Source of the DNA: a bacterium
GTDB taxonomy: Bacteria > Thermosulfidibacterota > Thermosulfidibacteria > Thermosulfidibacterales > JALWSI01
DNA: 9,224 nt
Assembly (NCBI GenBank): GCA_027080315.1
Contig: JALWSI010000018.1
Location: forward strand, 1-9,224
Reading direction: 5' to 3'
The notes beneath the pieces were generated by a model. The model was not told the DNA's origin and searched no databases. It saw only the letters and a list, made by a program, of their open reading frames with translations. The position numbers were made by a program, and so were the translations under genes. This document shows, in pieces, positions 885-9,224 of the stretch (within the stretch, counting starts at the first letter, position 1; each line of letters starts with the position of its first letter).

Positions 885-2216
885 ATGGACAGAAAAGAGT
901 ATTTTGAGAGAACCAAGGAGCTGTTTGTAGGAGGAGGCATCTTCGGAAAGGGCGAGGCTCTGAAGGGAGTTCGGGTTCTTGACGTCACCGCAGTGGTCCT
1001 CGGCCCCTCGGCAACAGACTACCTGGCAGAGTTTGGAGCTGAGGTGATCAAATTTGAAGCATCCCATGGCGACCAGATGCGCGCCGTTACACCTTACGCC
1101 TACTTCTGGAAAAACATGTCTCCAGGTCTGTGGGAACAACAGCATAACAAGTACTGGGTGGGCATGCACCTTGGAAATCCCAAGGCCAAAGAGCTCTTCC
1201 TTGAGTTTGTGAAGAAGGCCGACGTGGTTGTGGACAACCTGACCCCGGGAAGACTGACAGAATGGGGCGTGGACTATAAGGTGCTCAAAGAGATAAACCC
1301 CAAGATCATCCAGCTCCACGTGTCTGGGTTCGGCAGCTGGGGTCCCTGGACAGGAAGAACCTCTTACGATGCCATTGCCCAGTCCATGGGGTGTCTGGCC
1401 CACATTACAGGGTTTGAAGACAGAGGGCCTCTCAAATCTGGAGTGTGGATAGCTGACTGGATAAATGGATTGATGTGTGCAGTCTCCATTGCTGCAGCCC
1501 TCAACTACCGGGAGCGCACAGGAGAAGGACAGTTTATTGACCAGCAGCAGGTTGAGAACGTTATCAGGATGCTTGATTGGACCTGGATCTACACCTACCT
1601 CACAGGCGAGAACAGGCACAGAGCAGGAAACAGAGACTTAGCCATCTGCCCCTCTAATCTCTTTGACTGCCTTGACGGCTGGATAGCAATAACGGCTTTC
1701 ACAGAGGAAGAGTTCAAAGGTCTATGTCAGGCCATGGGTCGTTTAGACCTCTTTGAGAAGTACAGAGATCCCCTTGAAAGGCTGAAAGACGAAAACGCCA
1801 GGGCTCTTTTAGACGAGATCGCCCAGTGGACAAAAGAGAAGCACGTGGCTGAGGTGGAGAAGCTGGGAGACAAATACGGCTTCGCTGCCACCCGGGTGTT
1901 AGAGGTGGACGACGTTTACGATGGAGAGGCATACCAAGAGCGTGGCTCCATTCAGGAGTACGAAGACGAGATGTACGGTCCCTTCAAAGAGCAGTGTTAT
2001 CCTCCGAGGATGAGCGAGACCCCCAGCCGTTTGAGATGGGGAGCCCGCCCCATAGGCATAGACAACGAGTACGTCTTCAACAAGGTGTTGGGGCTCTCTC
2101 TGGAAGAGATTGAAAAGCTTCACGAAGAGGGTGTCATCTACAAGTGGAATCCCGATATGCCTTCCACCTGTCCTCCACCTGATTGGGATGGAAAATCTGG
2201 AATTAAGTTTCCTTGA
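885..2216 (+). CDS. CaiB/BaiF class III CoA-transferase, catalytic type (A1)
   Basis: A cytoplasmic 443-residue enzyme of the class III (formyl-CoA transferase/CaiB) family, which moves CoA from an acyl-CoA donor to a free carboxylate through an aspartyl-CoA thioester. Evidence: the N-terminal Rossmann-type opening ([20 protein letters not shown], 29-48, then GAEVIKFE, 51-58), [12 protein letters not shown] (111-122), SYDAIAQS (160-167), [12 protein letters not shown] (185-196) with D191 at the nucleophile position, and RTGEGQFID (211-219). Length fits the family (about 400-450). The ATG has AAGGGGG at 873-879, five bases upstream. First gene of a four-gene operon; it pairs by resemblance with the third gene (3598-4938), including the unusual C-terminal tail DWDGKSGI (433-440). 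It differs from its three sisters at the CoA-side RNKYH motif, which reads HNKYW here (88-92), so its donor or acceptor may differ. The substrate cannot be assigned; a succinyl-CoA-dependent activator of an organic acid is the nearest known type. Confidence 0.93.
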
Positions 2217-2221
2217 TTGTT

Positions 2222-2227
2222 AGGGGG
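2222..2227 (+). promoter_or_regulatory. Ribosome binding site fixing the start of gene B1
   Basis: AGGGGG lies six bases before the ATG at 2234. It decides against an in-frame TTG at 2213 that would overlap the stop codon of the preceding gene. Confidence 0.75.
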
Positions 2228-2233
2228 TGTATT

Positions 2234-3586
2234 ATGGACGAGAAAAAGATAGTTGGAATGGCCATCAACGCAGAGTACGCGAAGTCAATTTACGAGGAGA
2301 CAAAACCAGAGGACATACCGAAAAAGCCCGAGGCCTTAGACGACCTCGTGGTGCTTGACCTCAGCTATGGCAACTTTGCAGGGCTTTATGCTTCATCGCT
2401 GCTCTCAGAATTGGGAGCAGAGGTGATCAGAATAGAGCCCCCTGGAGGAGACATTGCCCGCAAGATGACCCCCTACGGTAAGATGATCAAGGATTCGGGC
2501 CTGCCCTACATAGTTGAGGCGAGAAACAAGTACCACGTCACCCTTGATATAACCACCGAAGAGGGCGCAGAGGTCCTGAAAGGGCTGGCTAAACACGCAG
2601 ACGTCCTCATTGAGACCTTCAGGCCCGGATACATGGCCTCGTTGGGTCTGGGTTACGAGGATCTAAAAGAGTTGAATCCACGGCTCATCTACTGCTCTAT
2701 CCACACCTACGGCCAGTTTGGAGGCGAGGCAGAAAAGCACTACAACCAGCCAGACTACGACCTGAACAACCAGGCCAGGGGTGTGGTCATGTCTGTAACA
2801 GGAGAGCCTGACCTGGATCCGGAGGTGCCCAAAGAGTACAAAAGGCCTCTAAGACAGGGCAACTGGATGGGATGGTATGTAGGCGGAGGATGGGCAGCCT
2901 ACGGAATCAACTTGGCCATCTTCCATCGCTACAAAACCGGAAAAGGGCAGTTCATAGACTGCTCACCACCAGAGGGGTTGTTCTCCATAGCCAACTACCT
3001 CTTCCAGTACTACCACATGCGTGGAGACAAGATGGTTAGGGCCGGTAACTACGACTACGCAGTCTTCCCCTACTCCTACTTCAAGTGCAAAGACGGCTAT
3101 GCTTTCATTTCAGGTTTCACCGATCCCAATTGGGCTGCAATCTGTGATCTTATGAATCGTCCTGACCTGCAAGATCAATTCCCCACCATTAAAGAGAGAC
3201 TGACTCCAGAGAACCAGCCGAAGATTCAGCACGAGATTGAGAAGTGGACCCAGAACTACACCTCAGAAGAGCTGCTTGAGATGATCACCGAGTACAGCCG
3301 CAAGCCTGACAAAAAGGGCACTGTGGTCACGGGAAGGTTGGAGGAACCCAAAGACACCCTTGAAAGAGAACACTGGCAGATGAGAAAGACCTTCGTGATC
3401 ATTAACGATCCTTATTACGGAAAGCTACTGGTTCAAGACTCGTCTCTGCACGGAATGTCACGCACTCCAGGCAGGATCAAGTGGCTATGCAGACCCATTG
3501 GAGCAGATAACGTGTTAATCTACAAGAAATATCTGGGCTACGGACCGTCCAAGATAGAGGAACTTAAATCAAAAGGTGTAATGTGA
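2234..3586 (+). CDS. CaiB/BaiF family protein lacking the catalytic Asp, probable partner subunit (B1)
   Basis: A 450-residue class III CoA-transferase fold protein. The family frame is clear: [20 protein letters not shown] (38-57), [13 protein letters not shown] (61-73), [11 protein letters not shown] (95-105), [11 protein letters not shown] (122-132), [14 protein letters not shown] (141-154) and [10 protein letters not shown] (233-242). At the nucleophile position, where sister A1 has WIAD, this protein has WMGW (211-214), so W214 replaces the aspartate. The SYDAIAQ motif of the A type is also altered (DYDLNNQ, 174-180). Alone it should not form the aspartyl-CoA intermediate. I infer that it is the non-catalytic subunit of a heteromer with the product of 885-2216, whose stop lies 17 bases before this ATG. 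I recall a similar division of labour for the BbsE/BbsF benzylsuccinate CoA-transferase, but that needs checking. The C-terminal third has a short charged insertion (about 355-361) before TVVTGRL, seen in B2 but not in the A type. Confidence 0.9.
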
Positions 3587-3591
3587 GGAGG
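3586..3591 (+). promoter_or_regulatory. Ribosome binding site fixing the start of gene A2
   Basis: A perfect AGGAGG begins on the last base of the upstream stop codon (TGA 3584-3586) and lies six bases before the ATG at 3598. It rules out the in-frame GTG at 3583. Confidence 0.85.
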
Positions 3592-3597
3592 AGAGAT

Positions 3598-4938
3598 ATG
3601 GACAAGACCAACTACTTCCAGTGGAGCAGCGAAACATTCTCTACCGAAGATATCTTCAGAAAAGGCGAAGCCCTGAAAGATATTAAGATCGTAGAGCTCT
3701 GTACCCTCATCTTGGGACCGGCGACCCCTGCCTACCTGGCGGAGTTTGGTGCAACGGTCTTCAAGGTTGAGCTTCCTGGAATGGGAGACACTATGCGCTC
3801 TCTCACCCCGTGGGGCCACTTTTACAAAAACCAGGCCCTTGGGTGGTTAAAAGAGGCGCGCAACAAGTACCACGTGACCATCGACGTCCACCACGAAGAG
3901 GGCAAAGAGCTGTTCAAGAGACTTGTGGCAGAGTCTGATGTGGTTGTAGAGAACCTGAGAGCAGGAACCATGGACAGATGGGGCATTGGCTACAGAGACT
4001 TGGTAGAAGTTAACCCCAAACTCATCTACATCGCAAACAACGGCTTTGGACAATGGGGCCCCTACGTTGAGCGTCCCAGCTACGACGCCATTGCCCAGTC
4101 TGAGTCAGGAGAGGCCTGGATCTCCGGATTCCCCGGCAGGCTGCCCATGAAAAGCGGCATATGGCTATGTGACTACTACGGCGCCTTAATGGCTGCTGTG
4201 GGAATACTGGCAGCCCTTCACTACAGAGATCGCACTGGCAAGGGGCAGTACCTCGAGTTCTCCCAAACCGAAAACATCATGAGAGCAATGGACTGGACCT
4301 GGATCTACCAGGGGCTCACTGGCAAGGGAAGAGAAAGGTACGGGAACAGAGACGTGGCGATATGCCCATCTGAGATCTTCAAGAGCAAAGACGGAGAGCT
4401 CGTTGCAGTGGCAGCGGTTAACAACGATCAGTTCAAGGCCCTATGCCAGGCCATGGAGAGACCTGAGCTTGCAGAAGAGCCCCGCTTCGCCACAAACCTT
4501 GAGAGGACAAAAGAAGAGAACGCTCCTGTAATCTTAAAGGTGGTGAAAGACTGGGTGGCCTCAAAGACCTGGGGTGAGATAGACAAGCTCGCCAAGGAGT
4601 ACGGGTTTGCAGCAGAGAAGGTTTACAGCGGCAAAGACCACTACTACGATAAGCACTTTGAGGAGAGAGGATTCAAATGGCACATTGACGATCCCATCCT
4701 GGGAGAGTGCGTGGAAGAGGGAATCGCTCCCAAACTCTCAGAGACCCCTGGTAGAATAAAGTGGATGGGCAAACCCGTGGGCTTTGACAACGAATACGTC
4801 TTCACCAAGTATCTCGGTCTCTCCTTAGAACAGTTGAAGGCTTTGGAAGAGAAAGGCGTTATCGGCAAATGGACCGACTATCCGGGCAGAAAGCCACCTG
4901 AAGATTGGGACGGCAAATCTGGAATCATCTATCCATAG
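3598..4938 (+). CDS. CaiB/BaiF class III CoA-transferase, catalytic type (A2)
   Basis: A 446-residue class III CoA-transferase that closely resembles A1 (885-2216); about half the residues agree by eye in the N-terminal region. The start is supported by the matching N-termini (MDKTNYF here, MDRKEYF in A1) and by the AGGAGG site. Visible elements: [20 protein letters not shown] (30-49), [11 protein letters not shown] (86-96), [11 protein letters not shown] (113-123), [14 protein letters not shown] (161-174), [12 protein letters not shown] (186-197) with the presumed nucleophile D192, RTGKGQYLE (212-220) and the shared tail DWDGKSGI (436-443). Unlike A1 it has the usual RNKYH CoA-side motif (88-92). 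It lies 11 bases after B1 and 11 bases before B2, and most simply forms the catalytic half of a second enzyme with B2. Cross-pairing with B1 is possible. Substrate unknown; oxalate or carnitine roles are not favoured by the two-subunit layout. Confidence 0.93.
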
Positions 4939-4942
4939 GAGG
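4937..4942 (+). promoter_or_regulatory. Ribosome binding site fixing the start of gene B2
   Basis: A perfect AGGAGG overlaps the upstream stop codon (TAG 4936-4938) and sits seven bases before the ATG at 4950. This excludes the longer in-frame TTG start at 4905, which would run 34 bases back into the preceding gene. Confidence 0.85.
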
Positions 4943-4949
4943 TACAAAG

Positions 4950-6284
4950 ATGGCAGACAAGAGCATACCTTGGGATCAGTGGATAAGAGAGCACGACGAC
5001 CCCAAATACGCCAGAAACAAACCTGAAGCCCTTGACGATATATGGGTGATAGACCTCAGTTACTCAAACATGGGAGGCTGCTTTGCCTCATCCATTCTGT
5101 CTGAGCTGGGGGCCAATGTTATCAGAATAGAGCCAAGCAGCGGAGATCCGGCAAGAGAGTACGCTCCTTTTGGTATCACAAAGGGAGGGGTAGGCTTGGG
5201 ATACCTCAACGAAGGCCGCAACAAGTACCACATCACCCTCAATCTGGATACCGAGAAAGGAAGAGAGATCCTGAAGAGCCTGGTTGATAGCAGAATGGAT
5301 GTGGTGATTGAAACCTTCAAACCAGGCCAGATGGATGAGTGGGGCATAGGATACCGCCAGCTCAAAGAGCTGAAACCGGATCTCATCTACTGCGCAGTGA
5401 CCACCTACGGACAGTTTGGTGAAAAGGCCAACTGCGGCAAAGGGTGCGCAGACGTGGTTGATCAGGCCATGTCTGGAGTCACCTATGTTTCTGGAGAGTA
5501 CATTGAAGACCCCAACAATCCCCAGGAGTGGGAGGTTCCCACCAAGCAAGGCAACTGGATGGGATGGTACTGTGGTGGAGCATATGCAGCCTTCTCCATC
5601 CTCGTGGCGCTGCACTATCGTCACCTCACTGGCAAAGGACAGATGATTGACGTCTCGTGCGCAGAAGCCTTGGGAAGGATGATAAACTACAGTCTAACAT
5701 ACTACCACGACACCGGAGAAACCGTTGAACGGGTGGGCAACCTTGACGCCGGAGTCTTCTGTTACACCTACTTCAAGTGTAAAGACGGATTCTGCTTCCT
5801 GTCAGGATTCTCAGACCCCAACTGGTATCTGCTAACCGAGGTTATTGAGAGACCAGATCTTAGGGAACAATACCCTACCATCTTTGAGCGTCTAAAATTC
5901 GAGAACATGAAAAAGGCGTACAAAGAGATAGAAAAGTGGACCCTACAGCACACCTACCAAGAGATCTACGAAAGATGCATGGAGGCCAACCGCAAAGCCA
6001 AAGAGAGCGGTCAAGGCGGAGTGGTGGTTCCCGGTAAAGTCTGCTCCTCTTGGGAGACCATGAACACCGACAACTGGTGGGAGAGAGGAAGCTTAGAGAA
6101 GATAAACGATCCCGTTTACGGAGAGCTCACCATCTGCAACCAGCCTTGGAAGATGACCGAGACTCCACCAAGGGTGAAATGGGTATGCCGCCCCGTGGGA
6201 GCAGACAACAGCTTCATTTACGGAACCCTGCTTGGCCTGGGCAAGAAAAAGCTTGAAGAACTAAAGTCTGAGGGCGTGATCTAA
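4950..6284 (+). CDS. CaiB/BaiF family protein lacking the catalytic Asp, probable partner subunit (B2)
   Basis: A 444-residue paralogue of B1 (2234-3586) and last gene of the operon. Shared with B1: KPEALDD (24-30), IDLSYSN (34-40), SELGANVIRIEP (51-62), RNKYHITL (90-97), [11 protein letters not shown] (200-210), TGKGQMID (227-234), YFKCKDGF (274-281), CRPVGADN (413-420) and a C-terminal LEELKSEGVI (435-444). W206 stands where the catalytic aspartate of the A type would be, and the local SYDAIAQ motif has become DVVDQAMSG (168-176). I therefore read it as a fold-conserved, non-catalytic subunit for A2. It is rich in cysteine for the family, including C44, C148, C162, C166, C208 and C236, which would be compatible with an anaerobic cytoplasm but is not diagnostic. 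A short charged insertion (about 347-356) precedes GVVVPGKV, as in B1. Function beyond membership of a CoA-transferase complex is not visible. Confidence 0.9.
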   Translation: MADKSIPWDQWIREHDDPKYARNKPEALDDIWVIDLSYSNMGGCFASSILSELGANVIRIEPSSGDPAREYAPFGITKGGVGLGYLNEGRNKYHITLNLDTEKGREILKSLVDSRMDVVIETFKPGQMDEWGIGYRQLKELKPDLIYCAVTTYGQFGEKANCGKGCADVVDQAMSGVTYVSGEYIEDPNNPQEWEVPTKQGNWMGWYCGGAYAAFSILVALHYRHLTGKGQMIDVSCAEALGRMINYSLTYYHDTGETVERVGNLDAGVFCYTYFKCKDGFCFLSGFSDPNWYLLTEVIERPDLREQYPTIFERLKFENMKKAYKEIEKWTLQHTYQEIYERCMEANRKAKESGQGGVVVPGKVCSSWETMNTDNWWERGSLEKINDPVYGELTICNQPWKMTETPPRVKWVCRPVGADNSFIYGTLLGLGKKKLEELKSEGVI

Positions 6285-6455: not shown

Positions 6456-7997
6456 TCAACTCAACAGAGGCAACCTGATAACCGCCTTTGTGCCTATGCC
6501 CACAGTGGACTCCAAGGTGAGGGTGCCGGAGTTCTCATCAATAAGGCGACGGCAGATGGCAAGACCCAAGCCAGTGCCATCCTCTTTGGTGGTGAAAAAG
6601 GGCTCTTCTACCTGCTTCAGTATTGATTCCGGTATTCCTTCCCCCTGATCCTCAACCACAATCACCGCCTCATCACCCTCTTTGAAGAGGCTCACTGTCA
6701 CCGTTCCACCCCTGGGCATGGCCTCTATGCCGTTCTCTACCAGATGGCAAAGCACGGTCTTTATGTGCTTAGGATCAACATTAACCATAAGCACCTCGTC
6801 AGGAAGGTACTCAACCACATTGTATCCTTCAGGAAGGTCGCTTTGGAGGTGTGGAATGGTTCTCTTCACCACCCTGACCAGATCAAAATGCCCCTTTGAT
6901 GGGTAGAGGTCCTCAGCAAGGGTGTGCACCTGATTCACCAAGGTCTCAAGCTTCTCAGCCTCCTTTGCAATGGCCTCAACGATCTCCCTGTGGGGATGGT
7001 GATCCATTTTGCTCAATAGATACCTTGCCAGTCCCCCTATTGCCGTCACGGGGTTTCGGATCTCGTGGGCTATTTTAGAGGTTAGCTGATTAACCGCTTC
7101 AACCTTCTCTATCTTTATCTCTGCCCTCTTCTCTGCGTATTGGTAGGCATCTGCCTTGGCCTTCTCCCTCATGAGATCCCCAACCCTCTGGTAAAGGTGC
7201 ACCCTCTCCATGGCCAAAGAGGCCTTTGAGACAAAGCTGGCAATGGCCCTGAGGTCGCTCTGGGCAAGCTCACGATCCCCGTTATCCAGAAGCACCATAC
7301 CCAACGGCCCTTTCTTGCCCCAGAGGGGCAGAAAGATGCATGATTCCGTTGAGAGTAGCCGGAGGATCCTCTCTAAGACAGGATCCTGGACGGAGCCATC
7401 AACATGCTGGATCTCCCTTGAGAGCATTATTCCCGTCACAGGGTGATTCTTGTCTAAGGGGAAGATGAGCTTCTCAATGATGGGGGCCAGCCTGTAGGTT
7501 CCCTGCTCAAGTAGCTCGTACTCTTTCAAGTGGCTCAACACCTTCCCACCGTTCTCTCCCAAATGCTCCATACCCCAAGTGGCCTTCAAGGCTCCTTGAA
7601 GCTGATTAACCAATAAGAGTATGGCCTTGTTAAAACCGAAGCCCTCTTCAGCAGCCAGAATGGTAAGCAGCGAATGGTAGATATCACGCTGATCCTGAGA
7701 GTTGGAGAAGGTGTTGAACACCTCAGAAAAGGCTTTAAGAGACCACTCCTGCTCTTTCAACCTGCTGATGATCTCCTGAGAGATCTTCTTGCCGAGAATC
7801 TGGGGGAAGATGTCCATACCTTCCTGTGGATTGATGAAGGCAGAGAGTTCAACCAAAAACTGCTTGCAGCCCACGCATTTCTGATACAGCCTTTTGCGGA
7901 GGTTGGTGAGAAGAATCCCCTCGTTTACCGCATCAATGTTGGGACACTCCCCTTTGGCCAGCATCGGCCGTATCCAGCAGTTCTCTATATCCTTCAT
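6456..7997 (-). CDS. Soluble GAF-domain sensor histidine kinase with an N-terminal four-Cys motif
   Basis: A 513-residue cytoplasmic histidine kinase without membrane segments. Order of parts: a cysteine motif (C7, C18, C41, C44: NCW, GECPN, KCVGCKQF), a GAF-like region (about 85-265), a charged helical linker (about 266-300), a dimerisation/phosphoacceptor helix with IAHEIRNPVTAIGG (309-322, H311), and an HATPase domain with N422 (VENGIEAMPRGG, 420-431), D450 (VEDQGEGIP, 448-456), EPFFTT (465-470) and GTGLGLA (474-480). All catalytic boxes are intact. The frame is open up to an ATG at 8142-8144, but that start has no ribosome site. The ATG at 7995-7997 has GGGAGG three bases upstream (a short spacing) and a promoter at 8026-8054. 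The longer form would add 49 residues. No response regulator is adjacent in the window. It converges on the CoA-transferase operon and diverges from the biotin carboxylase gene; regulating either is an inference from position only. Confidence 0.88.
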   Translation of the reverse strand: MKDIENCWIRPMLAKGECPNIDAVNEGILLTNLRKRLYQKCVGCKQFLVELSAFINPQEGMDIFPQILGKKISQEIISRLKEQEWSLKAFSEVFNTFSNSQDQRDIYHSLLTILAAEEGFGFNKAILLLVNQLQGALKATWGMEHLGENGGKVLSHLKEYELLEQGTYRLAPIIEKLIFPLDKNHPVTGIMLSREIQHVDGSVQDPVLERILRLLSTESCIFLPLWGKKGPLGMVLLDNGDRELAQSDLRAIASFVSKASLAMERVHLYQRVGDLMREKAKADAYQYAEKRAEIKIEKVEAVNQLTSKIAHEIRNPVTAIGGLARYLLSKMDHHPHREIVEAIAKEAEKLETLVNQVHTLAEDLYPSKGHFDLVRVVKRTIPHLQSDLPEGYNVVEYLPDEVLMVNVDPKHIKTVLCHLVENGIEAMPRGGTVTVSLFKEGDEAVIVVEDQGEGIPESILKQVEEPFFTTKEDGTGLGLAICRRLIDENSGTLTLESTVGIGTKAVIRLPLLS

Positions 7998-8025
7998 CAG
8001 CCTCCCTTTATCCCACCCCTTAGCT

Positions 8026-8054
8026 TCTATGGCTCCAAACAAATTGGGTGTCAA
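8026..8054 (-). promoter_or_regulatory. Candidate sigma70 promoter for the histidine kinase gene
   Basis: On the minus strand TTGACA (complement of 8049-8054) is followed after 17 bp by CATAGA (complement of 8026-8031): a perfect -35 and a weak -10 with three of six matches. It would start transcription near 8019, just ahead of the GGGAGG site and the ATG at 7997, which supports the shorter start. Its -35 lies in one arm of the dyad at 8047-8075. Confidence 0.45.
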
Positions 8055-8075
8055 GGAGATTTTGTTGTTGACACC
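8047..8075. repeat. Perfect dyad overlapping divergent -35 boxes
   Basis: GGTGTCAA (8047-8054) and TTGACACC (8068-8075) are exact reverse complements around a 13-base spacer. Each arm contains a TTGACA, one facing each way. A second, overlapping pair, TTGGGTGT (8044-8051) and ACACCCAA (8079-8086), is also exactly inverted. The element lies between the histidine kinase and biotin carboxylase genes. It could be a regulator-binding operator or simply two back-to-back promoters. Confidence 0.5.
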
Positions 8076-8096
8076 TTTACACCCAAAGAATAAGTA
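8068..8096 (+). promoter_or_regulatory. Weak candidate promoter for the biotin carboxylase gene
   Basis: TTGACA at 8068-8073 is a perfect -35, but at 17-bp spacing the -10 reads TAAGTA (8091-8096), a poor match. It would need an activator or a different sigma factor, or the true promoter may lie elsewhere. Transcription would begin near 8103, about 45 bases before the ATG. Confidence 0.3.
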
Positions 8097-8134
8097 GGTT
8101 TTAGGGAAGCCGAAAAAGTTTGACCACAGCAAAC

Positions 8135-8141
8135 AAGGAGG
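8135..8141 (+). promoter_or_regulatory. Ribosome binding site of the biotin carboxylase gene
   Basis: AAGGAGG sits six bases before the ATG at 8148, an ideal arrangement. It leaves no room for an initiation region of the opposing frame beginning at 8144. Confidence 0.85.
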
Positions 8142-8147
8142 CATTGG

Positions 8148-9224
8148 ATGTTCAAAAAGGTTCTGATCGCCAACAGAGGGGAGATTGCATGCAGGGTTAT
8201 CAAAGCATGCAAAGAGATGGGGATAGCCACCGTTGCGGTCTATTCAGAGGCGGACAAAAACGCCCTGCACGTTGAGATGGCAGACGAGGCAGCTCTCATC
8301 GGACCACCTCCAGTTGCCCAAAGTTATCTCAATATGGCCAAGATAATAGAGGTGGCAAAGGAGAAAGGGGCAGAGGCAGTCCATCCCGGATACGGTCTTC
8401 TCGCCGAAAATCCCACCTTTGCGAAAAGCTGCGCTGACGCAGGAATAACCTTCATTGGTCCATCCCCAGAGGCAATGTCTGCTATGGGGCTAAAGGTTGA
8501 AGCCAGACGTCTTATGAAAGAGGCTGGGGTCCCTGTCGTTCCGGGAACCGAGGGTCTGAAAGACGCAGAAGAGGCAAAGGCGGTTGCAAAAGAGATAGGA
8601 TACCCTGTGATGCTCAAGGCCTCCGCTGGAGGTGGGGGTATAGGCATGCAGGTGGTGAAGGAAGAGAAAGAGATGGAGAACGCCTTCAAGATGTGTCAGA
8701 CCCGCGCCAAGGCCTACTTTGCCAATCCCACTGTTTACGTTGAGAAGTTCATTGAGAACCCAAGACACGTTGAGGTTCAGATCCTGGCAGATGGATCCGG
8801 CAAGACCGTCTATCTCAACGAGAGGGAGTGCTCTGTGCAAAGGCGGCATCAGAAGGTGATTGAAGAGGCACCATCCCCAGCAGTGGACTCTGAGCTCAGA
8901 AAGAGAATGGGAGAGGCGGCAGTGGCAGCAGCCAAGGCCATCAACTACGTGAACGCGGGAACCGTTGAGTTTCTCATGGACTTCCAAAAGAACTTCTACT
9001 TCTTAGAGATGAACACCAGGATCCAGGTGGAGCATCCCGTCACCGAGATGACCACAGGGGAGGATCTGGTGCAGTGGCAGATCCGCATAGCCGCTGGGGA
9101 ACCCCTAACACTTGAGCAGGATAGCATTCCCTTGAAAGGACACTCCATTGAGTGTCGTATCTACGCAGAGGATCCAGACAAGAACTTCATGCCCTCTCCA
9201 GGAAAGCTCACCAAATGGATAGTG
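8148..9224 (+). CDS. accC: Biotin carboxylase subunit of an acyl-CoA or pyruvate carboxylase (partial, C-terminus beyond window)
   Basis: The 359 visible residues are an ATP-grasp biotin carboxylase, which uses ATP and bicarbonate to carboxylate biotin on a carrier protein in the cytoplasm. Domain order: the N-terminal domain ([18 protein letters not shown], 4-21; [13 protein letters not shown], 77-89), the ATP-grasp with K116 and K157, the glycine-rich loop AGGGGIGM (160-167), [18 protein letters not shown] (227-244, with H234 and K236), E274, and [14 protein letters not shown] (287-300, with E287, N289, R291, E295), then the C-terminal domain start with R337 (ECRIYAEDP, 335-343) and MPSPGKL. 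All catalytic residues of E. coli AccC have counterparts. Whether biotin carrier and carboxyltransferase domains follow in the same chain cannot be seen, so the partner enzyme (acetyl-, propionyl-, other acyl-CoA or pyruvate carboxylase) is undecided; the symbol denotes family only. It is transcribed away from the histidine kinase. Confidence 0.93.

Follow-up and report, generated by a model that had tools for sequence, protein, structure and literature searches.

The window analyzed here is the entire 9,224-base contig C18 (JALWSI010000018.1) of G000, a 1.84-Mb draft genome from the order Thermosulfidibacterales. It contains a row of four genes for class III coenzyme A (CoA)-transferases, A1, B1, A2, and B2. 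The explanation that we favor on balance for the locus as a whole is that these genes specify two separate heteromeric enzymes, A1-B1 and A2-B2, which would act on short- or branched-chain acids. The protein family, gene order, pairing, ancestry, and aspartates are observed directly, and complex formation, the two-site chemistry, the substrates, and co-transcription are inferred. The A-B-A-B order described in the initial annotation was borne out, with intergenic gaps of 17, 11, and 11 bases and a purine-rich Shine-Dalgarno-like stretch preceding the ATG of each gene.

885–2216, + strand: A1, class III CoA-transferase, A-type subunit of pair 1 (443 amino acids; PF02515, E 4e-111; Asp162, codon 1368–1370; clade 1, with Archaeoglobi and deltaproteobacteria)
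2234–3586, + strand: B1, class III CoA-transferase, B-type subunit of pair 1 (450 amino acids; PF02515, E 2e-99; Asp176, codon 2759–2761; clade 1 of the B tree)
3598–4938, + strand: A2, class III CoA-transferase, A-type subunit of pair 2 (446 amino acids; PF02515, E 5e-109; Asp163, codon 4084–4086; clade 2, with Desulfacinum and Syntrophobacteraceae)
4950–6284, + strand: B2, class III CoA-transferase, B-type subunit of pair 2 (444 amino acids; PF02515, E 5e-90; Asp168, codon 5451–5453; clade 2 of the B tree)

The Pfam match to PF02515 spans the full domain in all four proteins (E 5e-90 or better). A1 and A2 are 47% identical and B1 and B2 49% identical, as compared to roughly 28–38% between A-type and B-type proteins. 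The N-termini and tails noticed earlier as common to A1 and A2, and to B1 and B2, were confirmed by this comparison. There are nine PF02515 genes in G000: the four of the window, a pair A3B3 on contig C62, a pair A4B4 on contig C194, and one single gene. Because such genes are this few and the same order recurs in five other genomes, the A-B-A-B arrangement is not due to chance.

These five genomes belong to the same order (G001, G003, G005, G006, and G007), and orientation is kept in them as well. In a sixth (G002), A1-B1 and B2 run off the ends of two different contigs, which is probably the same four-gene cluster broken by assembly. Among the loci examined, a tandem of two pairs was found in this order only. 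The four genes of the window are probably co-transcribed as one transcript. An opposite-strand thioesterase-like gene lies between the two pairs in G006, which argues against a single transcript as a universal feature and for the pairs as modules. This thioesterase-like gene (L039:7707-8219) is 67% identical to a 4HBT thioesterase of G002; the latter and an HpaB/4-hydroxybutyryl-CoA-dehydratase-type protein are both encoded ahead of A1 (L041:4158-6089).

Pairing of A- and B-type subunits

Scanning the genome_contigs database with the A-type alignment yielded 69 loci, and at every locus where the contig continues, a B gene adjoins the A gene. Evolutionary distances among A-type proteins track those among their B-type neighbors, with a correlation of 0.90 over 68 pairs (clade 4 left out); none of 2000 permutations reached this value, the best being 0.21. 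For the six four-gene loci, the correlation is 0.93 when adjacent genes are paired and 0.66 when the pairing is fully crossed, and the adjacent assignment ranks first among all 64 assignments. In a metagenome-assembled genome of Ca. Methylomirabilota, A and B are joined in one uninterrupted frame of 902 amino acids (L063:8001-10706, JACQHM010000273.1). Taken together, the distance correlation, the better fit of adjacent than of crossed pairs, and the fusion frame make it very probable that each adjacent A and B constitute one heteromeric enzyme, which would be an interlocked A-B dimer or a higher oligomer. The initial annotation had offered either two parallel heteromeric enzymes or mixed complexes. 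The first part is supported by mirrored trees and the fusion, in that adjacent A and B evolve as a unit, whereas A1-B2 and A2-B1 complexes are disfavored by the poorer fit of crossed pairs.

Four independent homodimers that merely share an operon would agree with the usual state of class III enzymes (CaiB, YfdE, and Mct are homodimeric; PMC5592240) and with the presence of an Asp in each protein. We consider this arrangement improbable, as A-B pairing is strict in about 70 loci over several phyla, the A and B trees mirror each other, the pair in the first slot changes as a unit (see below), and an A-B fusion exists.

The catalytic Asp, which belongs to a D-x-x-x-Q-type motif, is present in all four proteins (A1 162, B1 176, A2 163, and B2 168). 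The aligned residue is Asp in 77 of 77 A-type and 72 of 73 B-type sequences, the remaining B-type sequence having Glu. A VENL/VENF motif has Asn in A-type subunits and Thr at that site in B-type subunits. The retention of Asp in both subunits leads us to infer two different active sites per A-B dimer, in each of which the Asp would form the acyl-anhydride/thioester intermediate.

Alternatively, one subunit could be catalytic and the other structural or donor-binding despite having an Asp, as the sequence of the benzylsuccinate CoA-transferase BbsEF suggests. BbsEF (9fn0) was the sole heteromeric class III entry in our searches of the PDB, and its chain A carries Asp where chain B has Gly; the Thr that replaces Asn in the B-type VENL/VENF motif also fits such a division of labor. 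We regard this alternative as rather unlikely, since Asp is conserved in both A and B over great sequence distance, and Gly occurs in one subunit of 9fn0 and of a Variovorax pair but not in the A/B family.

Ancestry of the tandem pairs

Pair 1 of the window is 80–81% identical to that of G002, and it shares 65–74% identity with the pairs that stand alone in Archaeoglobi, deltaproteobacterial, and Desulfobacterales genomes. For pair 2, identity to the stand-alone pairs of Desulfacinum, Desulfosoma, and Syntrophobacteraceae is 61–72%. Matching clades (1, 1', 2, 3, and 4) were recovered in the A and B trees. Values of dN/dS of ~0.04–0.05 for A2 and B2 against G005 indicate purifying selection, with dS near saturation.

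The initial annotation had ascribed the alternating order to duplication of a two-gene unit. A recent local duplication, which would result in two near-redundant or mixed complexes, does account for the alternation and for A1 and A2 both being A-type and B1 and B2 both being B-type. It is nonetheless very improbable. The tandem pairs are less similar to each other (47–49%) than each is to stand-alone pairs of other phyla (61–74%), pairs 1 and 2 fall in separate starred clades, and crossed pairing, as expected of mixed complexes, fits worse than adjacent pairing. In addition, Desulfacinum infernum has four pairs (one of clade 1, one of clade 2, one clade-4-like, and one more), each on a contig of its own, such that the counterparts of pairs 1 and 2 are unlinked. 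As judged from these sequences, the tandem is a juxtaposition of ancient paralogous pairs and not the product of recent local duplication. The two pairs would have diverged before the sampled lineages and come to lie in tandem within the order of the window.

Five relatives within the order have a clade 1' pair in slot 1 instead of a clade 1 pair. Constraining all slot-1 genes of the order to a single clade was rejected for both A (approximately unbiased test, p-AU 6e-8) and B (p-AU 0.002), in a test that used quick trees and a group chosen after tree inspection. Slot 1 thus differs among relatives, with A and B having changed together as one unit.

Gene neighborhoods and candidate substrates

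Genes for methylmalonyl-CoA mutase (large subunit and B12 subunit) and MeaB adjoin six of ten stand-alone A2B2 pairs. Some of the stand-alone A2B2 loci also have an SSS monocarboxylate-type symporter, a DUF294-like protein, and an exonuclease; the mutase and symporter identities were checked, and the latter two names were assigned by eye. Archaeoglobus A1B1 pairs are accompanied by the same symporter, DUF294-like, and exonuclease genes along with two AMP-ligases, and in L074 by the mutase. The pair in L103 and the fusion in L063 sit near genes for an AtoE-like transporter and for class I CoA-transferase subunits. Next to the pairs of the window, L042, L063, L069, L104, L108, and Desulfacinum L135 are Liv-type ABC transporter genes. 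Methylmalonyl-CoA mutase is present in every genome of the order searched, and G000 has two, one of them beside a propionyl-CoA-carboxylase-like set.

The four transferase genes of the window are flanked by the following features.

1–435, − strand: start of a Liv-type ABC transporter substrate-binding protein of the branched-chain amino acid family, divergent from A1 and cut by the contig end (PF13458, E 8e-22)
6456–8144, − strand: sensor histidine kinase, outside the operon (HisKA and HATPase_c)
8148–9224, + strand: biotin carboxylase subunit of an acetyl/propionyl-type CoA carboxylase, cut by the contig end
9100–9218, no strand: 119 bases identical to the start of contig C135 of G000, a probable physical continuation

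Based on the 119 exactly overlapping bases, the biotin carboxylase gene probably continues into C135, which encodes a biotin carrier, an enoyl-CoA hydratase (nearest to PRK07657), a carboxyltransferase, an HMG-CoA synthase, and a thiolase. The contig break falls inside the biotin carboxylase gene, and the last 6 bases of the window disagree with C135. We take the joined C18-C135 gene set to be reminiscent of leucine/3-methylcrotonyl-CoA clusters.

The mutase, the monocarboxylate and Liv-type transporters, and the biotin-dependent carboxylase suggest short- or branched-chain acyl-CoA metabolism as the common theme of these neighborhoods. The acceptors of CoA would be short- or branched-chain carboxylic acids, and the donor whichever acyl-CoA is available (succinyl-CoA or acetyl-CoA). 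Our best guess from the neighbors is that pair 2 acts on propionate entering the methylmalonyl-CoA pathway, and pair 1 would act on another small acid.

Several points weigh against the explanation as a whole. Correlated trees of neighboring genes can also stem from joint inheritance, and the AlphaFold monomer models, built from alignments of 13 rows for A2 and 19 rows for B2, are weak (mean pLDDT 59 and pTM 0.52 for A2; mean pLDDT 70 and pTM 0.61 for B2). The linkage to the mutase is mostly within Syntrophobacteraceae and does not occur beside the pairs of the window. Lastly, in the comparison of characterized class III enzymes in PMC5592240, the substrates are dicarboxylic acids and not propionate-like ones. 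This last point also speaks for aromatic or dicarboxylic substrates of the pairs (benzylsuccinate-, mesaconate-, or methylsuccinate-like), as do the best NCBIfam match, a succinyl-CoA:mesaconate CoA-transferase scoring far below its cut-off, and the presence in G006 of nearby indolepyruvate-oxidoreductase-like and phenylacetate-CoA-ligase-like genes (read by eye). As SSS, AtoE-like, and Liv-type transporters and the methylmalonyl-CoA mutase module recur beside the pairs, we hold aromatic or dicarboxylic substrates to be a minority prospect and prefer short- or branched-chain monocarboxylic acids.

Three further features came to light near such pairs or in G000. In contig C12 of G000 (L125:1486-6863), a methylmalonyl-CoA mutase is interspersed in a single cluster with MeaB, an enoyl-CoA hydratase, and subunits of the class I CoA-transferase type. 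In five A2B2 loci (L052:6508-7791, L053, L055, L058, and L060), the gene immediately upstream of A2 encodes a predicted membrane protein of ~428 amino acids. It has no Pfam match, and standing in place of the SSS symporter of other loci, it is a possible unrecognized carboxylate transporter. A conserved protein of ~162 amino acids with Cys pairs, likewise without a Pfam match, follows the divergent A4B4 pair at three loci.

L012:316-804, − strand: ~162-amino acid Cys-pair protein
L036:11998-12489, + strand: ~162-amino acid Cys-pair protein
L136:8571-9050, + strand: ~162-amino acid Cys-pair protein

Relation to known class III enzymes

The fold and class of chemistry of these proteins are ordinary. 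What appears to be new is a heteromeric family with two Asp residues and parallel pairs, which appears undescribed: no paper on it was found in the literature searched, with subscription journals lying mostly outside that search. This family is of more interest than the tandem order itself. It is widespread, strictly paired, and present as up to four parallel pairs per genome. A tentative proposal is that it constitutes a distinct heteromeric class III family of A-B dimers with two unlike active sites, comprising no fewer than four parallel paralogous pairs across Archaea and Bacteria and activating propionate or branched-chain acids in anaerobes. If so, the two sites could be one for donor loading and one tuned to the acceptor, or they could serve two acceptors per enzyme, and the role would fall in anaerobes in which class I enzymes or ligases are assumed. 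In thermophilic sulfate reducers and Archaeoglobi, genes of the family would be candidates for the activation of acids, and the family would offer a clean system for studying the passage from homodimer to obligate heterodimer and for the avoidance of cross-assembly among paralogous pairs.

The closest relatives are stand-alone A-B pairs, as yet uncharacterized, of Archaeoglobi, Desulfacinum, Desulfosoma, Syntrophobacteraceae, and Rokubacteria. These belong to the same A/B family (about 45–74% identical) and occur as one pair per locus, in contrast to the two in tandem in the window. A 4,990,251-base contig, which we presume to be the Syntrophobacter fumaroxidans genome, carries an A1B1 pair (1.66 Mb) and a second pair (3.67 Mb); it has no PF02515 gene at 0.9–1.02 Mb, the position estimated from gene number for Sfum_0809-0812. 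These proteomically detected Syntrophobacter CoA-transferases (PMC8691401) were therefore set aside as a twin of the A-B-A-B locus.

In a combined tree, A and B form one group apart from BbsEF, SUGCT (9br6), and the 4ed9 and 10uh chains. Within this group, A1 and A2 on the one hand and B1 and B2 on the other lie in two separate, well-supported clades (A, 100/99; B, 100/100), which cover types 1–3; the divergent type-4 pairs are not resolved. The tree is thereby in agreement with the grouping of A1 with A2 and of B1 with B2 on which the initial annotation had staked its reading. None of the NCBIfam equivalogs (Mct, FRC, CaiB, SucGlut, YfdE, and mesaconyl isomerase) was reached, the best score being 224 bits against a cut-off of 700. 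Frc/YfdW, YfdE, CaiB, SUGCT, and Mct resemble the A/B family in PF02515 fold, catalytic Asp, and length, but they are homodimers encoded by single genes, whereas A and B come as gene pairs. YfdE and Mct also have a GNxH motif, in contrast to GNxD in A and B (PMC5592240).

The initial annotation had likened the locus to BbsEF. This comparison holds for the two-subunit architecture, as BbsEF is likewise of the class III fold family and composed of paralogous subunits from adjacent genes. It does not extend to tree placement or active sites, as the chains of BbsEF group with the Variovorax pair in a clade of their own outside A and B, with Asp in one subunit and Gly in the other, whereas the A/B family has Asp in both. 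A toluene-type role was set aside, as no bbs- or bss-like genes occur near the window. The A/B family would thus be heteromeric in the manner of BbsEF, as far as sequence comparison can tell, but is not a member of the BbsEF group.

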